DNA of 35,666 bases, taken from assembly GCA_005777805.1 (NCBI GenBank), contig SXLG01000191.1, forward strand, positions 1-35,666, written 5' to 3'. Positions 1,880 through 33,829 of the stretch are shown here, piece by piece. Each line of letters starts with the position of its first letter. The stretch's first letter is position 1. Made by a program: the position numbers and the translations under genes. The notes below the pieces were generated by a model. The model saw only the letters and a list, made by a program, of their open reading frames with translations, did no database searches and was not told the origin of the DNA. The DNA is from Pseudomonadota bacterium (GTDB lineage: Bacteria > Desulfobacterota > Binatia > UBA12015).

Positions 1880-2479
1880 GTGATCGGTGGCTTGCGTGGC
1901 CAGCTTGGGCGCAAGAAGCCGGGCGAGATCCTCGTCGACGTCGGCGGGGTGTTCTATCAGGTGCAGGTCTCGTTGCAGGCGTACGCCAGTTTGCCCGCCG
2001 AGGGCTGTGCGGTGACGCTCGACGTCGTGACCGAGGTGCGGGAAGATGCCTTCGTGCTCTTTGGCTTCCTCGATGAGCGTGAGAAGACGCTCTTTGGCTG
2101 GCTGCGCGGGGTCAGCGGCGTCGGCCCAAAACTTGCGCTTGCGGTGCTCTCGGGGATGCCGGTCGAGGAAACCCTGGCCGCGCTTGCCGGCGGAGACGCG
2201 GTACGGCTGACCACGATTCCCGGACTCGGTCGCAAGACCTCCGAGCGGCTGATCCTCGAGCTGCGCGAACGCGCCGTCAAGGGGATCGACGGCGCGCCTG
2301 CGCGTGGCGGCGCGACGGCTCCCGGTGCCGCGGTGCGCGAGCGCGACGAGGAGGTCCTCTCCGCGTTGGTCAACCTGGGCTACAAGCGCACCGAGGCCGA
2401 ACGCGCGTTGCGCTCTGTCGCGGCCGATGTGCCGCTCGAAGATGCGCTGCGCTCTGTCCTGCGGAGGTTTGCTCGATGA
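1880..2479 (+). CDS. ruvA: Holliday junction branch migration protein RuvA
   Basis: MIGGLRGQL...; [15 protein letters not shown] and [17 protein letters not shown] helix-hairpin-helix motifs. Confidence 0.96.
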
Positions 2480-3510
2480 CGGCAGATCGTCCGCGCTCAC
2501 CCGCCGAGGCCCGCGAGGACGAGGCGGGCTTCGACGCCAGCCTGCGCCCGGCACGGCTCGTCGATTACGTTGGTCAGGACGAAATTCGCAACCGCCTCGG
2601 CATCGCCATCCGTGCGGCGCGGGAGCGGGGCGAACCGCTCGACCACATCCTGCTCTGCGGGCCGCCCGGCCTTGGCAAGACCTCCCTGGCGCAGATCGTC
2701 GCGCGGGAGATGGGTGTTGCCTGCCGCCGCACGCAGGGGCCGGCGATCGAGCGCGGCGGTGATCTCGCGGCGATTCTCTCCGACCTCGACCAGGGCGATG
2801 TGCTCTTTATCGACGAAATCCATGGCCTACCGCGCAAGGTGGAGGAGGTCCTCTATCCGGCTATGGAGGACTTCGAGCTCGACCTGGTGGTCGGGCAGGG
2901 GCCGAGCGCGCGGAGCCTCCGGCTGGCCCTCAAGCCCTTCACGCTGGTGGCGGCGACGACCCGGGCCGGAATGCTGAACGCCCCACTCCGCGACCGCTTT
3001 GGTTCGACTTTCCGTCTCGAATTCTATCGGGTCGAGGATCTCGAGCGCATCATCCTGCGCTCGGCCGGCATTCTAGGTATCGCGCTGGCACCCGAGGGGG
3101 CGCGCGAGGTGGCCACCCGCTCGCGCGGCACGCCGCGGATCGCCAACCGTCATCTGAAATGGCTACGCGACTGGGCGCAGGTGCACTCGCCCGGTGAGGA
3201 AGTCGGGGTTGTGCAGGCGGCGGCTGCGCTCGAGCTGCACCAGGTCGATCCGGCCGGCCTCGAACCGATGGATCGGGCGATCCTGGCGGCGGTGCTCGAC
3301 CGATTCGGTGGTGGTCCGGTGGGTGTCGAGAGCCTGGCCGCGCTGCTCGGTGAGGAACCCGAGACCGTGGCCTCGGTCTACGAGCCCTACCTCGTGCAAT
3401 CGGGCTACCTCGAGAGAACGCCGCGCGGCCGGATGGCCACGGATCTGGCCTGGCGCCATCTGGGTCGGCAGCGCGGTCTGGACGTGGTGCGCCAGGGCCG
3501 GCTCCTGTAG
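2476..3510 (+). CDS. ruvB: Holliday junction DNA helicase RuvB
   Basis: [36 protein letters not shown] Walker [10 protein letters not shown] Walker B; 4-bp ATGA overlap with ruvA. Confidence 0.97.
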
Positions 3511-3520
3511 GAGGTTGTCG

Positions 3521-3739
3521 ATGCCTGAAATGGCGCGGCTGCTGATCGTCGCGGGTGTGGTCTGCCTGCTTCTGGGTGGCGCACTTCTGCTCTGGCAGCG
3601 CGCCGGTGGCACGGGTCTGCCTCGGCTGCCGGGCGATGTCGTGATTGAGCGCGACGGCCTGCGGGTCTGGATCCCGCTCGGCACGAGTCTGGTCGTGAGC
3701 GTTGCGTTCTCGCTCATCGGCTGGCTGCTGCGGCGATGA
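3521..3739 (+). CDS. DUF2905-like small two-helix membrane protein
   Basis: MPEMARLLIVAGVVCLLLGGALLLWQRAGGTGLPRLPGDVVIERDGLRVWIPLGTSLVVSVAFSLIGWLLRR; LPGD motif between two TM segments. Confidence 0.8.
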   Translation: MPEMARLLIVAGVVCLLLGGALLLWQRAGGTGLPRLPGDVVIERDGLRVWIPLGTSLVVSVAFSLIGWLLRR

Positions 3740-6078
3740 GTTCATCGCTCGGGCCGACGGAAGACGCGCCGCTCCAGGCGCACGGGGCGCCACCGCGTGC
3801 GCGGGTCGAAGCCACCCGTTCCACTCGTGCCCCGGAGGTGGGCCGGGGCCCGGCCCGGACGTGGCGCCGTCGCGAGGCGGTGCTGCTCGCCTTCCTGCTC
3901 ATCTTCTCGATCGGGACGTTCCTCTGGTTCACGCGGCTCGACCCCTTTGGGGAGTCGAGCACGGCGCAGAACGTCGCTCTCTTCCTGTTGATCAATATCA
4001 ACATCGTCCTTTCGCTCCTGGCACTCTTCCTCCTCGGGCAGAACCTCGTTCGGATGCTGCTCGAGCGCCGCCGCCGGGTGCTGGGTTCGCATCTGCGCGT
4101 GCGTCTGGTGGCTGCGTTCGTGGCGGTGGCGATCACGCCGGCGGTGTTGCTCTTCGTGGTGGCACGCGGCTTCGTCGATAGCTCGATGGAGTCGTGGTTC
4201 TCGGTGCGCGTCGAGGGCGCGCTGGAGTCCGCGCTCGACATGGCCGAGACCTACTACCGTGAGCAGGAGGCCCGCGGACTCGGCGATGCGCGCTTCCTTG
4301 CCGCATCGCTGGGGCTGCGCGCTCGCGTGCCCGAGGTCGAGTCCAGGATTCTCGAGCGCGAGCGGGTGCGGTTGCGGGCGAGCGCGGTCACGGTTCTCGA
4401 TGCGAGCGGCGAAGTGCTCGGGCGCGGGGTCGAGGACGGACAGCCGGTGGGCGCGGCCGATCCCCCCGCGGCGGCGCTTCTGGAAGGGGCGGGGCGGGAC
4501 GGTGGGGCGAGCACCCGCGTCAGCATTGGGGGCGCCGAATTGCTGCGGACGATCGTCCCGATCGCCGGGCCGGCCGGCACGATCCGCGGCTTCGTGGTCG
4601 TCGATCGAGTGCTGCCCGCGGCGGTAGCCCGGCGGCGCACGGAGATCGAACAAAGTCACCGTGAGTACCGGCAACTCCGACTGCTCCGGCGGCCGCTGAC
4701 CAGCAGCTACGAACTCGCTCTCTTCTTTGTCTCGGTGGCCGTCGTGGTCGGGGGCGTGTGGCTCGGGATCGTGATCGCGCGCAGTCTGGCTGATCCCGTG
4801 CAGCGTCTGGTCGAAGGCACACGCCGGGTCGGCGAGGGGCATCTCGACGAGCGCATTCACGCCTCGAGTGGCTCCGAGGAGATCTCGCTGCTGATCGACG
4901 GCTTCAACCAGATGACCGAACGCCTCGGCGAAGCACGGTCCACCCTGACCGAGCGCACGAGCGCGCTCGAGGCGATTCTCGGTAACATTGCCGGCGGTGT
5001 GATCTCGATCGACAAGCAGGCGAGGATCGAGATCGTCAATCCGGCCGCGCGTCAGTTGCTGGGCATCGACGAGGATGCGATCGGCGTGGTCTTTCGGGAC
5101 TGGCTGACGCGGCCAGAGTTCGCCGTGGTGCGCGATCTTCTCGCCGAGCTCGACCGGCGCGCCCAGGAGGGGCTGCACGACGGCCTGCCGCCGCGGCGGG
5201 TCTCGGTCACGCGCGAGGACGGTGTAGTCGAGCTCGTCGCCACGGGGGTCGTGCTGCGCGACGACGCGGGGAGTGCGATCGGTGCGCTGCTCTTCTTCGA
5301 AGACGTCACCGAGATTCTGGCGGTACAGCGCATGGAGGCGTGGCGGGAGATCGCACGGCGCATCGCTCACGAAATCAAGAACCCGCTCACGCCCATCCAG
5401 TTGAGCGCGCAGCGTTTGCGCAAGCGCTACGCCGCCGAGCTTGGCGGCAGCGTTCTTGACGAGTGCACGCACACCATCATCGAGGAGGTCGAAGTCCTCA
5501 AGAACCTGGTCGCGGAGTTCGCAACCTTTGCTCGCCTGCCCTCGGGGCCTCGCGTGCCGACCGACCTGGGCGAGCTGGTCCGTGAGGCGCTGGTGCTCTT
5601 CCGCGAGTCGAACCCGGCGGTTGAATTCGCCCTCGACGCCGGTCGTGTGCCGGCGCTGGAGCTCGATTCCGCGGGAATCCGACGGGTACTCACGAACCTG
5701 CTGGCCAACGCGGTCGATGCCATCGCGGAACGGAGTCGCTCCACCGGATCGCGCGCGCTTGCGGACGGGAGCGAGGTGGCGAACCCGGAGGCGATGGCCC
5801 CGCGGGGGCATGTGTGGCTGCGCACGGAGTACGAACCGGCCCGTGCGCTGGTCCGGCTCGAGGTGGCCGACGACGGTATCGGCCTGACGCCCGAAGCCCG
5901 CGGGCGGCTCTTCGAGCCCTACTTCTCGACCAAGGCCCAGGGCACGGGCCTCGGGCTTGCCATCGTCTCGGCGACGCTCGCCGATCACCGCGCGTTCATC
6001 CGCGTGCGCGACAACCCGCCGCAGGGCACGCGCTTCCTGATCGAGTTCCCGGTGCGCGAGGCCGACCCGGCATGTTAG
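3736..6078 (+). CDS. NtrY-like sensor histidine kinase (N-terminal TMs, HAMP, PAS, HisKA, HATPase)
   Basis: TM segments near the N-terminus, HAMP-like region, AHEIKNPLTPIQLSAQRLRKRY H-box, LLANAVDAI N-box, STKAQGTGLGLAIV G-box; 4-bp overlap with preceding ORF. Confidence 0.93.
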   Translation: MSSSLGPTEDAPLQAHGAPPRARVEATRSTRAPEVGRGPARTWRRREAVLLAFLLIFSIGTFLWFTRLDPFGESSTAQNVALFLLININIVLSLLALFLLGQNLVRMLLERRRRVLGSHLRVRLVAAFVAVAITPAVLLFVVARGFVDSSMESWFSVRVEGALESALDMAETYYREQEARGLGDARFLAASLGLRARVPEVESRILERERVRLRASAVTVLDASGEVLGRGVEDGQPVGAADPPAAALLEGAGRDGGASTRVSIGGAELLRTIVPIAGPAGTIRGFVVVDRVLPAAVARRRTEIEQSHREYRQLRLLRRPLTSSYELALFFVSVAVVVGGVWLGIVIARSLADPVQRLVEGTRRVGEGHLDERIHASSGSEEISLLIDGFNQMTERLGEARSTLTERTSALEAILGNIAGGVISIDKQARIEIVNPAARQLLGIDEDAIGVVFRDWLTRPEFAVVRDLLAELDRRAQEGLHDGLPPRRVSVTREDGVVELVATGVVLRDDAGSAIGALLFFEDVTEILAVQRMEAWREIARRIAHEIKNPLTPIQLSAQRLRKRYAAELGGSVLDECTHTIIEEVEVLKNLVAEFATFARLPSGPRVPTDLGELVREALVLFRESNPAVEFALDAGRVPALELDSAGIRRVLTNLLANAVDAIAERSRSTGSRALADGSEVANPEAMAPRGHVWLRTEYEPARALVRLEVADDGIGLTPEARGRLFEPYFSTKAQGTGLGLAIVSATLADHRAFIRVRDNPPQGTRFLIEFPVREADPAC

Positions 6079-6088
6079 GAGCGCGGGG

Positions 6089-7351
6089 ATGCCCCGCCGC
6101 GTTCTGGTCGTCGATGACGAGGAGAAGATCCGCGCCACCCTGCGCGGTGTGCTCTCCGACGAGGGTTTCGAGGTCGAGCTCGCCGAGGATGGGCGGCGCG
6201 CGCTCGAGCGGCTGGCGATCGCGCCGCCCGATCTGGTGCTGCTTGATGTCTGGCTGCCCGAGATCGACGGACTCACGTTGCTCGAGCGGCTGCGCGAGGA
6301 CCACCCTACGCTGCCCGTCATCATCATTTGTGGCCACGCCAACATCGAGGCCGCCGTACGCGCGACCCGGCTGGGCGCGGCGGACTTCATCGAGAAGCCG
6401 TTCTCGATCGATGCGCTCCTGGTCTCGATCGACCGTGCGCTGGGCCGTGAGGCCAGCGCCCGTGCTCTCGAACCCGCGCTGCCGCATCGGGTCGAGAGTG
6501 GTGCCGGGGCGGGCGTCGTCCAGCGGACGATTTCGCGTAGTGTGACCGCGGCGGGACAGGGGCTCCATACCGGGATTCGAACCGGCATCATCCTCCATCC
6601 GCTGCCGCCCGGTAGTGGCATCGTATTCCAGAGCTTGTCGTCGGAGAAGACGGTGCCGGCGCACGTCGATTTCGCTGACTCGACCGGATACGCGACGACC
6701 CTCTATCGAGGGGGGTTCGGCGCCAAGACGGTCGAACATCTGCTCGCCGCGGCGAGTGGCTTCGGAATCACGAATCTGCTGGTCAAGATGGAGACCGAGG
6801 TTCCGATCCTCGACGGCTCGGCGCTGCCATTCTGCGAGCTTTTCGCCGGGGCGGGCATCGAGGAGCAGCCGGGGGACCCGGTTGCCGCGTGTCGGATCGA
6901 TCGCCGGCACGAGATCCGTGATGGGGCCAATCAGCTCGTGGTCGAGCCGGCAGAGCACCTCATCGTCGACTACACCCTGGATTATCCCGAGCCGGTCGGC
7001 CGCCAACGCTACGTCTACGAGCACCGCGGGCCGGAGTCGTTTCGCGCCGAGATCGCGCCGGCGCGTACCTTCGGCTTCGTCCACGAGTTCCGGCAGCTCG
7101 CTTCTGTCGGTCTTGCCGCAGGCGGACGACTCGACAACTGCATCCTGATCGGTGAGGACGGCGTGATCAATGGCGAGCTGCGTTTCCCCGACGAGTTCGT
7201 GCGGCACAAGATTCTCGATCTGCTCGGGGACTTCTCTCTGCTTGGCATGCCGCTCGTCGGTCGCGTCACCGCGATCGCGACCGGCCACCGTCACAACGTC
7301 CGCATGGTGCGCGAACTTCTCGCGGATCAGGGGAGGTGCGCCGCGGGTTGA
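6089..7351 (+). CDS. lpxC: Fusion protein: NtrX-like response regulator receiver domain + UDP-3-O-acyl-N-acetylglucosamine deacetylase (LpxC)
   Basis: N-term MPRRVLVVDDEEKIRATL...LVLLDVWLPEIDGL...GHANIEAAVRATRLGAADFIEKPFSID; from about 6521 QRTISRSVTAAGQGLHTG...KTVEHLLAA...ARTFGFVHEF...FVRHKILDLLGDFSLLG...ATGHRHNVRM. One uninterrupted frame. Confidence 0.95.
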   Translation: MPRRVLVVDDEEKIRATLRGVLSDEGFEVELAEDGRRALERLAIAPPDLVLLDVWLPEIDGLTLLERLREDHPTLPVIIICGHANIEAAVRATRLGAADFIEKPFSIDALLVSIDRALGREASARALEPALPHRVESGAGAGVVQRTISRSVTAAGQGLHTGIRTGIILHPLPPGSGIVFQSLSSEKTVPAHVDFADSTGYATTLYRGGFGAKTVEHLLAAASGFGITNLLVKMETEVPILDGSALPFCELFAGAGIEEQPGDPVAACRIDRRHEIRDGANQLVVEPAEHLIVDYTLDYPEPVGRQRYVYEHRGPESFRAEIAPARTFGFVHEFRQLASVGLAAGGRLDNCILIGEDGVINGELRFPDEFVRHKILDLLGDFSLLGMPLVGRVTAIATGHRHNVRMVRELLADQGRCAAG

Positions 7352-9212: not shown

Positions 9213-11378
9213 TCAGTTCAGGTTCTGGTCGAAGATGTCGTCGATATAGCCCGCGTGGCCGGCGCTGCAGTTGGTGTTGTAGGTGGTCTGGAAGTCGTCC
9301 ATGCCCCTGGATGTCGCACCGGCGCCATTGCCGCAGCAGCCGCCGGCGCCGAGTCCGTTGCCCAGGAAGATCTTGTGCGTCGAACCCTCATCGACGTACC
9401 AGAGCACGTCGTCGCCATCGGTGTGGCTGTCCCAGAGGTCATGGAAGGTCTGGGCGACGTACCACTCGCGGCTGTTCTTGCTCGAGGTTTTGGCGCAGGC
9501 GTCGGTCTCCATCTCGGTGCCATAGGAGGCCGTGCAGCTTGCGTCGCCGCGGCTGCAGCCGACCCAGGCGGGCACGAAGTCGGCATAACCTTCGGTCAGG
9601 GCGAGCCCCTCCGTGTACGCCGTGCAAAAGCTATGGCTGACGCAGGCGCCGCTCGGGAAATTGTTGTTCCAGAACTCGTAATGCACCTGGTGGGCAAACT
9701 CGTGCTGCACGATATCGTTCTGGACGCCGTGGGCGGCGGTCAACCAGACGCGCCCGTCGCAGCTCGCGCAACTCCAGGGCACCCCGGAGCCGTCGCCGCA
9801 GTCATAGGTGCTGTTGGGGTAGTAGACCTTGAGCGGATCTGCCCGCAGCGGGTTCAGCTCGCCCCGCCAGTACATCTCCGACCAGAGCATGTAGCCGCCG
9901 AAGTAGAGCTCGCCCAGCCCGTTGGCATCGCCGCCGTCGGCGTCGGCATACCAGTGGCCCTCGTCGTGGCTCGTCGAAATGCCCGTTCTGTCGGGGTTCC
10001 TCCAGCGGAAGAGGTCGTCGGTGGAGGTGCGCGGTTCGAAGAAGGAGTTGTAGGCGCGGAACTGGACGCGGAGGTTCTGGCCCGAGTAGCCGGCGTGGTT
10101 GACGCTGAGCGTGTAGTGGCCGTCCCACTCCACCCACTCGCTGGCAAGTTTGGTCCAGCTGCCGCTGTCGTTCCACCACGCGACCGCGCGCCAGCCCCAG
10201 CCGGGGTGCAGCGCATGGTCGGTCCACTTGACCGAGAACTGGCCCGTGATGGTGTAGGTCGCGGCACTGGTGGTGGCGAGCCCGGCGGGTGGGTTGACGC
10301 TGGCGCCCCGTGTGATCGAGCCGCCCCCCGGCAGGCAGGCACTGGGGAAGCGGGCGCAGTCGCCGCGCGGCTCCTCGCAGACCTCGTCGCCGCTCGGGCC
10401 GGCGCTGGTGGGGTCGATGGTCCTGACGCTCGAGTGCTGGGGGTCGTGGATCAAACCGGAATCCGGGATCACGGCCTTTGGAGTTTTGTAGTCCCCGACC
10501 GCCCAGTCGAAGTCGGGATGCGAGACGATCTCGCCGGTGTCGATGCCCGTGCCTTCGGCCGGATCGAGAGCCAGGCTCGTTGGCAGATAGAGATCCTCCC
10601 AGGTCGTCCGGTTGAAGGTGCCGATATCGGGATTGGTCGTGTTGGGGGTGAGGCGGTAGAAAAGCGAGAACCACTGCCGGGCGTCGCCTCGGCGGCCCGA
10701 CGAGATACGCTTGAGGTAGGAGGCGATCAGTCCGGCCTTGGGCCGCGACGACGCTAGCAGAGCCTGGGCGAGGGAATCGGTCTGCTCCGGATCGATCGCG
10801 AAGATATCGAAGTAGGAATGGAGCGCGAGCTTGCCGTTCGCGCTGGCGGCCCCGCGCTGGATATCAAGTGCCATCTGCAGAAGCAGCGTCTGTCCGCGCC
10901 GCAGGAGGTAGACGCCCGGCAACTCGGCCTTGGTGAGTTGGCAGAGCCCCCACTGCGGATCGAGCTTGACCGCGACCGGAGTCTCCGTACCGGCCAGCAC
11001 CGCGTCCAGATTCGCGACCCGGAAGGCTTCGGGCATGAAGCTGCGCCGGTCGTCGCCCTCGAAGGCGCACACTGGAAAGACCAGGATCACGTCGACATCG
11101 GGGTCGTTGTTGCGGAAGGCGTAGTCGAGGCGGGTGTCGCCCTTGCCCTTGGTATCCGTGAGGAAGCTGAATGGGCCGCTGACGGCGGCCTTGGCGAGCG
11201 TGACCACGATGGTCCCCGGCTCGTGCGCACGGGCGGGGCGGCTGTCGCCTACGGAGAATAGCGCGAGCGCGCAGGCACCGAGGGCGGCGCGTGCGAGGGC
11301 CTCTCGTGCGGGTAGTCTCCCAGCACGGGGTCGGAGAAGACGATTCAGGGAGTGGAAACTCGACATTGGAAGCTCCAT
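9213..11378 (-). CDS. Secreted HExxH metallopeptidase-like protein
   Basis: Signal-peptide-like N-terminus (..ARAALGACALALFSVGDSRPARAHEP); VQHEFAHQVHYEF zinc-binding-like motif followed by TEGLALTEGYADF. Confidence 0.6.
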   Translation of the reverse strand: MELPMSSFHSLNRLLRPRAGRLPAREALARAALGACALALFSVGDSRPARAHEPGTIVVTLAKAAVSGPFSFLTDTKGKGDTRLDYAFRNNDPDVDVILVFPVCAFEGDDRRSFMPEAFRVANLDAVLAGTETPVAVKLDPQWGLCQLTKAELPGVYLLRRGQTLLLQMALDIQRGAASANGKLALHSYFDIFAIDPEQTDSLAQALLASSRPKAGLIASYLKRISSGRRGDARQWFSLFYRLTPNTTNPDIGTFNRTTWEDLYLPTSLALDPAEGTGIDTGEIVSHPDFDWAVGDYKTPKAVIPDSGLIHDPQHSSVRTIDPTSAGPSGDEVCEEPRGDCARFPSACLPGGGSITRGASVNPPAGLATTSAATYTITGQFSVKWTDHALHPGWGWRAVAWWNDSGSWTKLASEWVEWDGHYTLSVNHAGYSGQNLRVQFRAYNSFFEPRTSTDDLFRWRNPDRTGISTSHDEGHWYADADGGDANGLGELYFGGYMLWSEMYWRGELNPLRADPLKVYYPNSTYDCGDGSGVPWSCASCDGRVWLTAAHGVQNDIVQHEFAHQVHYEFWNNNFPSGACVSHSFCTAYTEGLALTEGYADFVPAWVGCSRGDASCTASYGTEMETDACAKTSSKNSREWYVAQTFHDLWDSHTDGDDVLWYVDEGSTHKIFLGNGLGAGGCCGNGAGATSRGMDDFQTTYNTNCSAGHAGYIDDIFDQNLN

Positions 11379-28411: not shown

Positions 28412-29647
28412 TTATCGCACGAGCGCGTTGATCTCGAAGATGGGCAGCAGGATCGCGAGCACGATGAAGAGCACGACCGCGCCCATCGCGAGGATCAGTA
28501 CCGGTTCGAGGACGGCGGTGAGCGTCGCCAGCGCGCCTTCGACCTCGCCGTCGTAGGCGGCCGAAACCCGCTCGAGCATCGCTTCGAGGTCGCCGGCGCG
28601 CTCGCCGACTCGCACCATGTGCACCAGCATGGGCGGGAAGAGGCCAAGCTCGCGCAGCGTCGGCGCCAGCGCGTGGCCCTCGCGCACCGCCGTGGCGGCG
28701 GCGCGTACGGCCTGGGCCATCGCGCCGTTGCCCGAGACGTCGCCGGCGATGGGCAGGGCGTCGAGCAGGGGCAGGCCGCCCGCGAGCAGCGTCGAGAGCG
28801 TGCGCGCGAAGCGTGCCACGGCGATGCGCGTGAAGAGCGGGCCGACGACGGGCGCGCGCAAGAATGCCCGGTCGAGCGCGAGCCGCACCGGGGGACGGCG
28901 CAGGGCCACGACGGCGCCGGTCAGCGCGGCCGCGAGCAGGAAGAGGAGCATGCCGAGGTTATCGAGCAAAAAGTTAGAGAGGCCGAGCAGGAGGCGGGTC
29001 GGCAGGGGCAGCGCCTGCTGCTGGTCGGCGAAGATGCGCGTCACCTTCGGCACCACGAACGCCAGGAGGAAACTCACGATCGTCAGCGAGGCGATCAGCA
29101 TCAGCACCGGGTAGGCCAGGGCGTTGCGGGTCTTGACGGCGAGCTGGGATTGGGTCTCGGTCCAGCTCGCCAGCCGTGCCAGCACGGCGTCGAGGGCACC
29201 GGCCGCCTCGCCGGCGCGAACCATGCTCGAGTAAAGCGCTGGAAATGACCCACGCTGTCGGGCCAGAGCGTCGGCCAGGGCACTGCCGCCGACCACGTCC
29301 TCGCGCACGGCTTGCAGGACGCGGCGCACGGCCGGCCGCTCGGCCTGCTCGGCGAGCGCGTCGAGGGCCTCGACTGCGGGCACGCCGGCGGCGAGCAGGG
29401 TGGCGAGTTGGCGCGACACGCCGGCGAGTTCGGGCGGCCGCAGGCGAGCTTCGCGCCGGCCGAAGAGCCCGCCGGTCGCGGCGCCGGCGCCCGCCGCAGT
29501 CGATGTCGACCGGTCCTCGCGCACGACGGTCGGGAAGATGCCGTCGCGCTTGAGTCGCGCCCGCGCGGCGCGTGGTCCCTCGGCCTCGAGGCTGCCCTTG
29601 ACGCGCCGGCCGGCGGCGCTCAGGCCCTGCCAGGCGTACACCGGCAT
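28412..29647 (-). CDS. gspF: Type II secretion system inner membrane protein GspF
   Basis: MPVYAWQGLSAAGRRVKGSLEAEGPRAARARLKRDGIFPT; LATLLAAGVPAVEALDAL; three TM segments. Confidence 0.96.
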   Translation of the reverse strand: MPVYAWQGLSAAGRRVKGSLEAEGPRAARARLKRDGIFPTVVREDRSTSTAAGAGAATGGLFGRREARLRPPELAGVSRQLATLLAAGVPAVEALDALAEQAERPAVRRVLQAVREDVVGGSALADALARQRGSFPALYSSMVRAGEAAGALDAVLARLASWTETQSQLAVKTRNALAYPVLMLIASLTIVSFLLAFVVPKVTRIFADQQQALPLPTRLLLGLSNFLLDNLGMLLFLLAAALTGAVVALRRPPVRLALDRAFLRAPVVGPLFTRIAVARFARTLSTLLAGGLPLLDALPIAGDVSGNGAMAQAVRAAATAVREGHALAPTLRELGLFPPMLVHMVRVGERAGDLEAMLERVSAAYDGEVEGALATLTAVLEPVLILAMGAVVLFIVLAILLPIFEINALVR

Positions 29648-29846
29648 CAGCGCGGCCCAGCCCGCCGGCATCCCGGTCCGCAGTCGCTACGGCCGGCGCG
29701 GGTCTCCAGTCCCCGCATGTCGCGCGACCGACGGTCGTCGCTCAAATTGTGGGCACCTTGGGGCGATCCTCCGGCCTCGTTGCCGGGGATGGCACGCGAG
29801 CGAAGGGCGCCGTCGAGCGCCGAGGCGGCCGCGCGACTGCGCCGCC

Positions 29847-31427
29847 TCACGCGACTTCCTCCTGGGTAACGCGCAGGACTTCCTCGACGGTCGTTTCGCC
29901 GCGCGCGATCTTGGCCGCACCGTCCTGGCGCAGGAGGCGCATGCCGTGCCCGCTTGCCAGCCGGCGAATCGCCGCGCTGTCGCTGCGGGCCATCACCAGA
30001 CTGCGCACCTCGTCGTCGATCTGCAAAATTTCGTGGATACCGGTGCGACCGCGGTAGCCGGTCTGGCGACAGCCCGCACAACCCGCGCCGGCACGGAAGA
30101 CCGGCGTCCCCGCAACGAGCCCGAGTTCGGCCGCCTCGCGCGCGCTGGCCTCGGTCGGAACGCGGCAGTCCGGACAGACGCGCCGCACGAGCCGCTGGGC
30201 CACCACGCCGAGCAGCGCCGAGGAAACCAGGAAGGGCTCGATCCCCATGTCCACCAAGCGGGTGATCGCACCGAAGGAGTCGTTGGTGTGGAGGGTCGAG
30301 AACACGAGGTGGCCGGTCAGTGCTGCCTGGATGGCGATCTCGGCGGTCTCGCCATCGCGGATCTCGCCGCCCATCACGACGTCGGGGTCCTGGCGGAGAA
30401 TCGAACGCAGGCCACTGGCAAAGGTCAACTCAATCTTCGGATTGACCTGGATCTGGCCGACGCCGTGGAGCTGGACCTCGATCGGATCCTCGATGGTGAT
30501 GATGTTGCGGCTCGAGGAATTGAGCTGCGAGAGTGCGGCGTAGAGCGTCGTGGTCGTGCCGCTACCGGTCGGCCCCGTCACCAGAACGATGCCGTGCGCG
30601 CGCCCGAGCAACCGCCCGATTTCGTCGAGGTGGTCGCCGGCGAGCCCGAGGTCCTCGAGACGGAGCAGGGCGCCGCTGCGATCGAGCAGGCGCAGCACGA
30701 GTCGCTCGCCGAACTGGGTCGGTACGGTCGAGACGCGCACGTCGATGTCGCGGCCCGCGGCGCGAAAGCGGAAGCGTCCGTCCTGGGGCCGGCGTTTCTC
30801 GGCGATGTCGAGCCCGGCCAGAACCTTGACGCGCGCGACGATGGTCGGGTGGAAGCGCCGTGGTGGCCGGATGACGTCGTAGAGGATGCCGTCGATGCGG
30901 AAGCGCACGATCACTTCGCGCTCGAAGGCCTCGACGTGGATATCGGACGCCCGATCCTTGACGGCCTGGGAGAGCAGTGAGTTGACCAGCCGGATGATCG
31001 GCGCCTCGTCGTCGGCGTCGAGCAGGTCGCGCGGCTCCTCGAGTTCGTGCGCGACGCTCTCGAGGCCGCCGCCCTCGATATCGCCCATCACCGCCTCGGC
31101 CGATCCCTGGACGCGGTCGTAGGCCGCGTTGAGGCCTTCGAGCACCGCGGCCTGTGGGGCGATCACTGCGGTGATGGGCCGGTCGTAGAGGGCGCGCAGG
31201 TCGGCGACGACGTGCAAGGCCAGCGGATCGGCGAGCGCCACCACCACGTGCCCGCTGGTCGGGTCTTCGCGGAGCGGCAGGCAGGCGTTGCGGCGTGCGT
31301 AAGCGATCGGCAACCGCCCGAGCAGGGTGGCATCGACCTGGTCGGCGGCGATGTGCTCGACCACGGCGAGCCCGAAGCGGCGGGCTAATTCGGCAGGTGA
31401 CGACGCAGCCGCGGCATGTGCCATCAC
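29847..31427 (-). CDS. gspE: Type II secretion system ATPase GspE (with non-canonical Walker A)
   Basis: EDPIEVQLHGVGQIQVNPK Asp box, DPDVVMGGEIRD Walker B, STLHTNDSFGAITRL His box, CPDC...CAGC tetracysteine; Walker A reads GPTGSGTTTTLYAAL. Confidence 0.95.
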   Translation of the reverse strand: MMAHAAAASSPAELARRFGLAVVEHIAADQVDATLLGRLPIAYARRNACLPLREDPTSGHVVVALADPLALHVVADLRALYDRPITAVIAPQAAVLEGLNAAYDRVQGSAEAVMGDIEGGGLESVAHELEEPRDLLDADDEAPIIRLVNSLLSQAVKDRASDIHVEAFEREVIVRFRIDGILYDVIRPPRRFHPTIVARVKVLAGLDIAEKRRPQDGRFRFRAAGRDIDVRVSTVPTQFGERLVLRLLDRSGALLRLEDLGLAGDHLDEIGRLLGRAHGIVLVTGPTGSGTTTTLYAALSQLNSSSRNIITIEDPIEVQLHGVGQIQVNPKIELTFASGLRSILRQDPDVVMGGEIRDGETAEIAIQAALTGHLVFSTLHTNDSFGAITRLVDMGIEPFLVSSALLGVVAQRLVRRVCPDCRVPTEASAREAAELGLVAGTPVFRAGAGCAGCRQTGYRGRTGIHEILQIDDEVRSLVMARSDSAAIRRLASGHGMRLLRQDGAAKIARGETTVEEVLRVTQEEVA

Positions 31428-33829
31428 CGTGCTCCGAGATCGAGCGCCGGCAGCAGCACGCCGCCCACGGTGGCGGGCTCGTCGCGCAGCCGCGGCGGCG
31501 GCGTGAGCTTGCCGAGCGTGCCGCTGAAGCCCCAGCGCTTGGCCCGCATCGCCTCGCGGAAGTGCCGGCGTTGCTCGTCGCTCACGATCATGAGGTCGCG
31601 CGCGTCGTTCACGATGCGCGGCGTGAGCAGGATGATCAGGTTCACCTTCTCCTTCTTCTTCGATTCGAAGCTGAACAGGAAGCCAAGGCCCGGTACATCC
31701 ATGAGCCAGGGCACGCCGCTCTCGGCGCTGGTCAGTCGGTCCGAGATCAGGCCGCCGATCGCGATGGTCTCGCCGTCATTGACGACCACCGTGGTGGTGG
31801 CCGAGCGCACGGTGGTGGTCGGGCCGAGTTGCAGCAACTGCGTCTCGCTTGTCTCGACCAGTGCCGAGACCTCCTCGAAGAGGAAGAGCCGCACCTGATC
31901 GCCCTCGGTGATCTGCGGCGTGAGCCGCAGCGTGATGCCGACGTCGCGCCGATCGACCTGGCTGAAGGTGTTGGCGAGGTTGGTCTCGTTGGTCGAGCGG
32001 CTGGTGACGAAGGGCACGTTCTGGCCGACGACGATCTCGGCTTCCTCGTTGTCGGTGGTGAGGATGTTGGGCGCCGAGAGGACGTTGATGTCGCTGTCGG
32101 CTTCGAGCGCTTCCACCAGTGCAATGCCGGCAGGGATCTCGGTGCCGTCGGCGAGCTTGATCGTCTGCTTGCTGATCGCCGCACCGAGCGCGCCCGTGAT
32201 GCTCGAGAGGCCCGAGACGTCGCCGGTCGCGATGGCGTTGGTCAGCGTGCCGAGGTTCTTGAAGTTGCTGCGCCCGAGCAGGATCGCGTCGCCGGCTTGC
32301 GCTCCGCCCTGCAACTCGACGCCGAGCTCGCGCGCCTTGGACATCGTGATCTCGAAGAGGATCGCCTCGACGAGCACCTGCTTGCGCGGCACGTCAAGCT
32401 CTCGCACCACCTCCTCGACCAGCGCGAAATCTTGCGGTGCGGCGCTGATCACCAGCGAGTTGGTCGCCGGGTCGGCCGTGACGCGGACCTCGCTCTCGAA
32501 CTCGACCGCGCCCGAGCCGCCGGCGCTGAGGCCGCCCGCGCCGCCCATCCCGCCGGCGAGGCCGGCCGCCGCGTTGGCCGGTCGCCGTCCGCCCATCCCG
32601 CCCATGCCGCCGGCTGCGGCATTCGAGAGGACGCTGCGCCCGAAGCTCTGCCCCATATCGTTGCGGCCCGAGCCGAAGCGGCCGCCGCCCTCGGTTACCG
32701 AGCGACCGGGCAGCGCCTGGCGCAGGGGCGTGTTGACCGCGATGCCGAGCAGGTCGGCCAGCACCTGCACCAGCTCGACCGCGTCGGCGTAGCGCAGTCG
32801 CATCACCTGGATACGGCCGGTGCCGCGCGGCATCGGGATGTCGAGGCGGTCGATCAGGTTGCGCACCTCGCGAATCTCGAACGGGCTGCCGATCACGACG
32901 AGCGAGTTCGAGCGCAGCTCGGGCACGATGCGCAGCTTGCCGGCCGGGGTCTTCGAGCTGGCGGCCTGCGTGCCCGTCGCCACCGTGGTGGTGCGCCCGC
33001 GCAGCCCGGCTGCGTCGTCCTGGGCCGTGGCTTCCTCGAGAATCTTGGCGATGTCGGCGGCGAACGCGTGCCGCAGGGGCACCACCGCCACCGTGCGTTC
33101 CTGTCCGGGGACGTCGATGTCCTGGAGGATCACCATCAGCCGTTCGATGTTGGCGCCGCTATCGACCACGATCAGCGAGTTGGTCGGGCCGTAAGCGCTG
33201 ACCAGACCGTCGCGGGAGACCAGCGGCTGCAGGAGGTCGGCGACGGCGTTGGCATCGACGTGAGTGAGGGGCACGAGGCGCGTGACGAAAATGTCGCTGC
33301 CGGCGTCCTCGCCGGCGCGGCTCGGCAGACTCGATTGGCGCGCGTCCTTGAGCGGCACGATCTTCGTCACCGGGCCGGTGTCGACCACCGTGAAACCCTT
33401 CACCTGCAGGACCGACTCGAAGACCCGCTCGGCCTCGGCGACGGTGATCTCGCTCGGCGAGACGATCGAGACCCGGCCCTTGACCTGCTCGTCGAGCACG
33501 AAGTTGCGGCCGGTGATCTCGCTGATGAACTTGACCAGCGTCGGGATCTCGACATTCTGGAAGTCCATCCGCACCAGCGCGTCGTGCGCCAGCGGGACGG
33601 GGACCTCGGCTGGGGCGGCTGCTGTGGGTGCAGGGGCCGCGGTCTGGGCTCGGGCGGGCAGGGGAGGGGCGCTCATCGCCACGACGAGTCCGAGCAGCAC
33701 GCAGCGTCCGACTGCCGTGACGGCAGGGCAGCCGCGGCGGTTCACGCCCGCGCCCGCATCACGGTAGCGACCCTCATGCTTGCGCGCGGGCGCCAGCGCG
33801 CTCTGTCCAGCCCAGATTCGTGCCCCCAT
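31424..33829 (-). CDS. gspD: Type II secretion system secretin GspD
   Basis: N-domain repeats (FQNVEIPTLVKFISEITGRNFVLDEQVKGRVSIVSP; VPLTHVDANAVADLLQPL) and secretin core (VPFVTSRSTNETNLANTFSQVDRRDVGITLRLTPQI). True start probably internal. Confidence 0.96.
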   Translation of the reverse strand: MGARIWAGQSALAPARKHEGRYRDAGAGVNRRGCPAVTAVGRCVLLGLVVAMSAPPLPARAQTAAPAPTAAAPAEVPVPLAHDALVRMDFQNVEIPTLVKFISEITGRNFVLDEQVKGRVSIVSPSEITVAEAERVFESVLQVKGFTVVDTGPVTKIVPLKDARQSSLPSRAGEDAGSDIFVTRLVPLTHVDANAVADLLQPLVSRDGLVSAYGPTNSLIVVDSGANIERLMVILQDIDVPGQERTVAVVPLRHAFAADIAKILEEATAQDDAAGLRGRTTTVATGTQAASSKTPAGKLRIVPELRSNSLVVIGSPFEIREVRNLIDRLDIPMPRGTGRIQVMRLRYADAVELVQVLADLLGIAVNTPLRQALPGRSVTEGGGRFGSGRNDMGQSFGRSVLSNAAAGGMGGMGGRRPANAAAGLAGGMGGAGGLSAGGSGAVEFESEVRVTADPATNSLVISAAPQDFALVEEVVRELDVPRKQVLVEAILFEITMSKARELGVELQGGAQAGDAILLGRSNFKNLGTLTNAIATGDVSGLSSITGALGAAISKQTIKLADGTEIPAGIALVEALEADSDINVLSAPNILTTDNEEAEIVVGQNVPFVTSRSTNETNLANTFSQVDRRDVGITLRLTPQITEGDQVRLFLFEEVSALVETSETQLLQLGPTTTVRSATTTVVVNDGETIAIGGLISDRLTSAESGVPWLMDVPGLGFLFSFESKKKEKVNLIILLTPRIVNDARDLMIVSDEQRRHFREAMRAKRWGFSGTLGKLTPPPRLRDEPATVGGVLLPALDLGAR

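Follow-up and report, generated by a model that had tools for sequence, protein, structure and literature searches.

A two-component receiver domain joined to LpxC, the enzyme of the committed step of lipid A synthesis, raises the question of how such a protein arose and whether a kinase could act on the enzyme itself. The gene in question lies directly behind an ntrY-like kinase gene in the window, the whole 35,666-nucleotide stretch of DNA analysed here. The first-pass annotation had read from it a receiver and a complete LpxC in one ORF, with the AAA+ and Fis/HTH domains typical of NtrX missing and LpxC in their place.

Architecture of the fusion gene and its locus

425-1177, + strand: yebC (TACO1/YebC family), opening the conserved cluster upstream (Pfam PF01709/PF20772)
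1192-1866, + strand: ruvC (Pfam PF02075, conserved order)
1880-2479, + strand: ruvA (Pfam RuvA_N/RuvA_C, conserved order)
2476-3510, + strand: ruvB (NF000868 and TIGR00635 above cut-off, conserved order)
3530-3739, + strand: small DUF2905 membrane protein, overlapping the start of ntrY (Pfam PF11146)
3736-6078, + strand: NtrY-like membrane sensor histidine kinase, 780 aa (Pfam)
6077-6081, + strand: AGGAG, likely ribosome-binding site, 7 nt before the ATG of the fusion (sequence)
6089-7351, + strand: receiver-LpxC fusion P0001, 420 aa (ORF and Pfam)
6101-6430, + strand: NtrX-type receiver, residues 5-114 (Pfam, likeness to solved structures, conservation)
6113-6118, 6245-6247 and 6395-6397: receiver residues D9/D10, phospho-acceptor D53 and K103
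6443-6517, + strand: linker, residues 119-143 (variable; low model confidence)
6521-7321, + strand: LpxC catalytic domain, residues 145-411 (Pfam, invariant residues, solved LpxC fold)
7322-7348, + strand: short C-terminal end, 17 aa after TGHRHN, without room for the usual tail

The architecture was borne out on both points. The frame is open over all 420 codons, with no internal stop, and Pfam recognised Response_reg at residues 5-114 (E 2.6e-31) and LpxC at residues 145-411 (E 4.6e-81; profile positions 1-267 of 268); neither an AAA+ domain of the sigma54 type nor a Fis-type HTH was found by Pfam in the window fusion. The protein scored 272.7 bits against PF03331 (cut-off 27) and 232 bits against TIGR00325, the lpxC model (curated cut-off 187). 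Among the response-regulator models of NCBIfam the top one for the receiver was NF051870 (NtrX), against which the fusion scored 131 bits, below the 600-bit cut-off of that model. In a fold search the closest solved receivers were 4d6x, deposited as a Fis-family regulatory protein, and 5m7n, a full-length regulator deposited as a nitrogen assimilation regulatory protein, both of which we take to be Brucella NtrX; the second part of the fusion matched solved LpxC. Its residues E216/H217, H373/K374, D377 and H400 correspond to E78/H79, H238/K239, D242 and H265 of characterised LpxC. At the level of sequence and fold, these results strongly support the view that the receiver half is of the NtrX type and that LpxC stands in place of the AAA+ and HTH domains.

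The NtrY-like kinase reported 10 bp upstream was likewise confirmed, by coordinates and by Pfam: NtrY_N, HAMP, PAS, HisKA and HATPase_c were all found above cut-off, and no other NtrY_N protein is present in the genome. The start codon of the fusion follows the end of the kinase ORF by 10 bp, and in the sequence ttAGGAGcgcggggATG an AGGAG overlapping the ntrY stop codon is the likely ribosome-binding site. The HisKA phospho-acceptor lies within RRIAHEIKNP, and this H-box is kept in nearly all orthologues of the class. Judged by its position, the adjacent NtrY is strongly supported as the cognate kinase of the fused receiver. A scan for sigma-70 promoters found none. Elsewhere in the window, on the minus strand, lie type II secretion genes for a GspF-like protein and a GspD-like secretin (28412-29671 and 31424-33829) and a gene for a 721-aa protein with the metalloprotease-like motif HEFAHQVHYEF and no Pfam match (9213-11378).

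Distribution and conservation of the fusion

Related genomes speak against a stop or frameshift between the two domains. Of 58 genomes belonging to the window's class, 54 encode the full-length fusion in a single open frame, one gave a partial match and three gave none. In the window genome, a metagenome-assembled genome (MAG) that is 70% complete, the fusion is the only LpxC. A second, ordinary LpxC was looked for there and none was found; the class genomes covered by the family search, including near-100% complete ones, also hold one LpxC each. LpxB, a later enzyme of lipid A synthesis, was detected in 40 of 41 class genomes. Being the sole LpxC in a genome of a group that has LpxB, the window protein probably deacetylates UDP-3-O-acyl-GlcNAc, although this evidence is indirect.

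In all 20 larger class loci with upstream DNA, ntrY immediately precedes the fusion, and the two frames often overlap or nearly touch; most of these loci keep the order yebC-ruvC-ruvA-ruvB-ntrY-rr/lpxC. Of 43 class genomes, 39 encode exactly one NtrY_N protein and four encode none. The NF051870 cut-off was not reached by any protein of 41 class genomes, whereas one of the control genomes has a protein above it. A canonical NtrX elsewhere in the class genomes was thus rejected as a candidate, the many weaker matches being NtrC-family paralogues. With at most one NtrY and no true NtrX in the class genomes sampled, this NtrY lacks its ordinary NtrX partner, and its neighbour is an enzyme. The architecture and its association with an adjacent NtrY, for which the annotation had proposed a search, therefore recur, and as far as gene sequences can tell the receiver-LpxC protein is an old and conserved family that is the rule in the class.

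The fusion is not restricted to this class. Of 120 genomes of the acidobacterial class to which record L005 and the Thermoanaerobaculia records belong, about 40 carry a full-length fusion, and such fusions were also found in many families of the same phylum. A fusion that is an accessory, second LpxC was found in 9 of 128 genomes of the Nitrospirota group and in other records, among them Desulfopila sp. IMCC35006 (L009), and a receiver-AAA+-LpxC protein of about 700 aa in 17 of 18 genomes of the order of the Desulfomonile record L012. In many of these other lineages ntrY is not adjacent to the fusion. The receiver-LpxC proteins of L008, L009, L011 and L217-L225 are second LpxCs on a long branch of their own with no ntrY nearby, and an ordinary LpxC was found as well in the genomes of L008, L009 and L011. 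In two acidobacterial genomes (G442 and G443, loci L174 and L175) an extra, partial LpxC-like protein covering profile positions 1-182 accompanies the fusion.

Residue conservation was analysed in 117 distinct fusions. The LpxC residues E216, H217, H373, K374, D377 and H400 were invariant in all 117, and the receiver residues D9, D10, D53 and K103 were kept in all except two: L249, a broken copy from a MAG, and a copy truncated at a contig end. In a 60-sequence alignment mean pairwise identity was similar in the receiver (51%) and in LpxC (54%) and far lower in the linker (11%). At the switch position of the receiver, usually Ser or Thr, the window protein has Cys81 (6329-6331). Cys occurs there in 8 of 39 class sequences, and all other fusions have Ser or Thr. 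Cys81 could weaken the receiver switch, or may make it slow or redox-sensitive. In L249 (765-2075, minus strand) the first half of the receiver, with the acid pair, is missing, and Thr stands at the position of D53; this copy stems from a broken MAG contig or else is a natural variant blind to phosphorylation. In L231 (7400-8100, minus strand) the receiver of a receiver-AAA+-LpxC gene is in frame and interrupted by one stop codon. Since the rest is intact, the stop is either a mistake of assembly or a lesion of very recent date.

Relation of the fusion to NtrX

In a tree of 107 LpxC domains, the 47 fused and the 60 standalone sequences were split by a branch with support 100. In a receiver tree, built on few columns and with weak internal support, the fused receivers formed one group with NtrX receivers encoded beside standalone lpxC genes, and for each fused receiver the closest unfused one was an NtrX from such a position. 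The gene order lpxC-ntrY-ntrX itself was found at four of 57 long standalone loci (L013, L017, L027 and L039) and at L016.

Relatives of the window protein retain more of NtrX. Members of the L226-L234 set consist of receiver, AAA+ domain and a decayed Fis-type HTH followed by LpxC, and one of them, L232, aligns to positions 4-452 of the 452-position NtrX profile. In L012 and its order the HTH is gone and receiver, AAA+ and LpxC are left. The GAFTGA loop of the AAA+ domain, which contacts sigma54, is missing in all 22 AAA+-bearing fusions, and the acid pair of Walker B is mostly lost. The simplest reading of these sequences is that a whole ntrX fused with a nearby lpxC, DNA binding being lost and the AAA+ domain later. 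The LpxC tree (three changes) gives no direction of change by itself; a piecewise gain of NtrX domains in the right order would be far less likely. The series NtrX-LpxC, receiver-AAA+-LpxC and receiver-LpxC in relatives thus indicates that what had been a transcription factor turned into a putative regulatory module of LpxC.

Proposed control of LpxC and alternative readings

We consider it likely that the sole LpxC of this organism is under direct two-component control via NtrY and the fused receiver. The membrane kinase would sense an envelope-related state, autophosphorylate and hand the phosphate to Asp53 of the receiver covalently joined to LpxC. The receiver would pack on the LpxC domain, its phosphorylation would alter activity, accessibility or turnover of LpxC, and lipid A synthesis would be set without a transcription step. 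Since the kinase, the receiver chemistry and the enzyme are intact and encoded as a coupled pair, NtrY is the likeliest input and LpxC the likeliest output. Phosphotransfer, and an effect of it on LpxC, would be the most likely course of events, judging from the kept phospho-chemistry and catalytic residues and from the NtrYX system of alphaproteobacteria. In Rhodobacter and Caulobacter NtrYX lowers lpxC transcription, and Rhodobacter that has lost ntrYX holds about nine times as much lpxC transcript and about twice as much LPS (PMC7240162, PMC12444477). Because NtrYX lowers lpxC expression there, restraint is slightly favoured over activation as the sign of control. By this analogy signalling of the NtrYX kind is directed at LpxC in two distant groups, through gene expression in the alphaproteobacteria and apparently through physical attachment here.

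The structure prediction that the annotation had suggested for the fusion was confident over both domains (pLDDT 91, pTM 0.90; linker pLDDT 57). A pTM of 0.90 is too high for freely moving domains, so the model predicts a fixed packing of the receiver on the LpxC domain, although pTM signals docking only indirectly. When the PDB was searched with this two-domain model, only single LpxC structures were among the best matches listed. For a receiver-AAA+-LpxC protein the model reached a pTM of 0.47, too low to read the domain arrangement. At eleven positions of LpxC the fused proteins share a near-invariant residue that is uncommon in the standalone ones; G166, K233 and T398 among them are invariant in fused LpxC, and K233 is replaced by an acidic residue in most other LpxCs. 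Y299 and P300 too are invariant, or almost, in the fused proteins alone. These positions are candidate receiver contacts, and shared ancestry alone could explain them.

The two kinds of LpxC also differ at the C-terminus. The median number of residues after the TGHxxN motif is 12-18 in fused LpxCs (17 in the window protein) versus about 40 in standalone ones, and the absent part is the long tail that carries the FtsH degron in E. coli LpxC. The loss, a single evolutionary event that coincides with one clade, is consistent with receiver-based control having taken over from the degron, and may have nothing to do with regulation. The LapB zinc ribbon (PF18073) proved unspecific as a marker, since B. 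subtilis and other control genomes matched it too.

The missing tail also bears on the possibility that phosphorylation of the receiver acts on turnover only, hiding the protein from FtsH or Lon or exposing it to them and so replacing the C-terminal degron. All fused LpxCs lack the long tail, E. coli LpxC has a C-terminal degron and is controlled by proteolysis, and Lon degrades some degron-free LpxCs (PMC12444477). We nevertheless regard this as unlikely, if the most serious of the alternatives, because no degradation signal was identified in the fusion and because the correlation with tail loss rests on one event in one clade.

More doubtful is a role of the receiver as a recruitment domain that anchors LpxC to the complex of the membrane kinase or to another partner, phosphorylation shifting location and not catalysis. 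Such tethering would bring LpxC close to the pathway of its lipid substrate. Pfam marks the adjacent kinase as a membrane protein, a LapB homologue of Neisseria puts LpxC at the membrane (PMC12444477), and the variable linker is tether-like. However, the two domains take up a definite arrangement in the model (pTM 0.90), fusions are kept in many genomes without a nearby ntrY, and a fully conserved phosphorylation site asks for more than a static tether.

Fusion to a whole NtrX offers an obvious accidental route to a receiver that is a mere phosphate sink or NtrX leftover without effect on LpxC, the fusion only tying expression together. This we hold to be very improbable: the AAA+ and HTH domains decayed and vanished, yet the catalytic residues of the receiver were all kept across several phyla, the receiver is as conserved as the essential enzyme, and it persists even where no ntrY is nearby. 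An assembly or frameshift artefact, which a window from a MAG of 70% completeness might suggest, can practically be dismissed, a chimera being rejected by the same open-frame type in 54 of 58 class genomes and by independent named records of other lineages.

Direct control of LpxC by the fused receiver is thus the reading we prefer. With confidence a little better than even, we extend it to the proposal that the ntrX-lpxC fusion converted NtrYX to a direct LpxC switch that would replace degron-based proteolysis in the class and in several other lineages.

Response regulators with enzyme outputs are known, among them the CheB methylesterase, PleD-type cyclases and EAL or HD-GYP phosphodiesterases. 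In these, as in the fusion, a receiver governs a fused enzyme without transcription, but their outputs are signalling enzymes, whereas here the output is an essential biosynthetic enzyme. Control by FtsH, LapB and YejM in Enterobacteria is also post-translational and acts at the same control point, LpxC. It acts through membrane proteins and the C-terminal tail to bring about proteolysis, whereas the fusion carries a phosphorelay domain in the enzyme and lacks the tail. In the bifunctional LpxC-FabZ proteins (NF009667) LpxC is likewise joined to another domain; FabZ, however, is a pathway enzyme at the C-terminus and the receiver a regulatory domain at the N-terminus. The fusion shares with LpxC itself (TIGR00325, PF03331) the complete catalytic domain, the active-site residues and the solved fold, and differs in its N-terminal receiver, its short C-terminus and its own sequence clade. 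With the known NtrYX system, which controls envelope genes (PMC7240162; PMC12444477), it shares the NtrY-like kinase and the NtrX-type receiver. NtrX acts on DNA through AAA+ and Fis-type HTH domains, whereas the fusion lacks both and has LpxC as output. Enzyme-output response regulators, control of LpxC and LpxC-FabZ fusions are thus already known, and what is unusual is an essential biosynthetic enzyme as the output. No description of a receiver-LpxC or NtrX-LpxC protein was found in the literature covered, which leaves out most subscription journals; the architecture may well already figure in domain databases.

Lipopolysaccharide synthesis is controlled mainly at LpxC, which is also an antibiotic target, yet how LpxC is regulated is poorly known beyond Enterobacteria. 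With the regulator welded to the enzyme, two proteins would suffice to test the kinase and its effect in vitro. The fusion adds weight to the so far slender connection between NtrYX and the cell envelope, and the NtrX-LpxC series would be a preserved record of a transcription factor turning into a direct enzyme switch.
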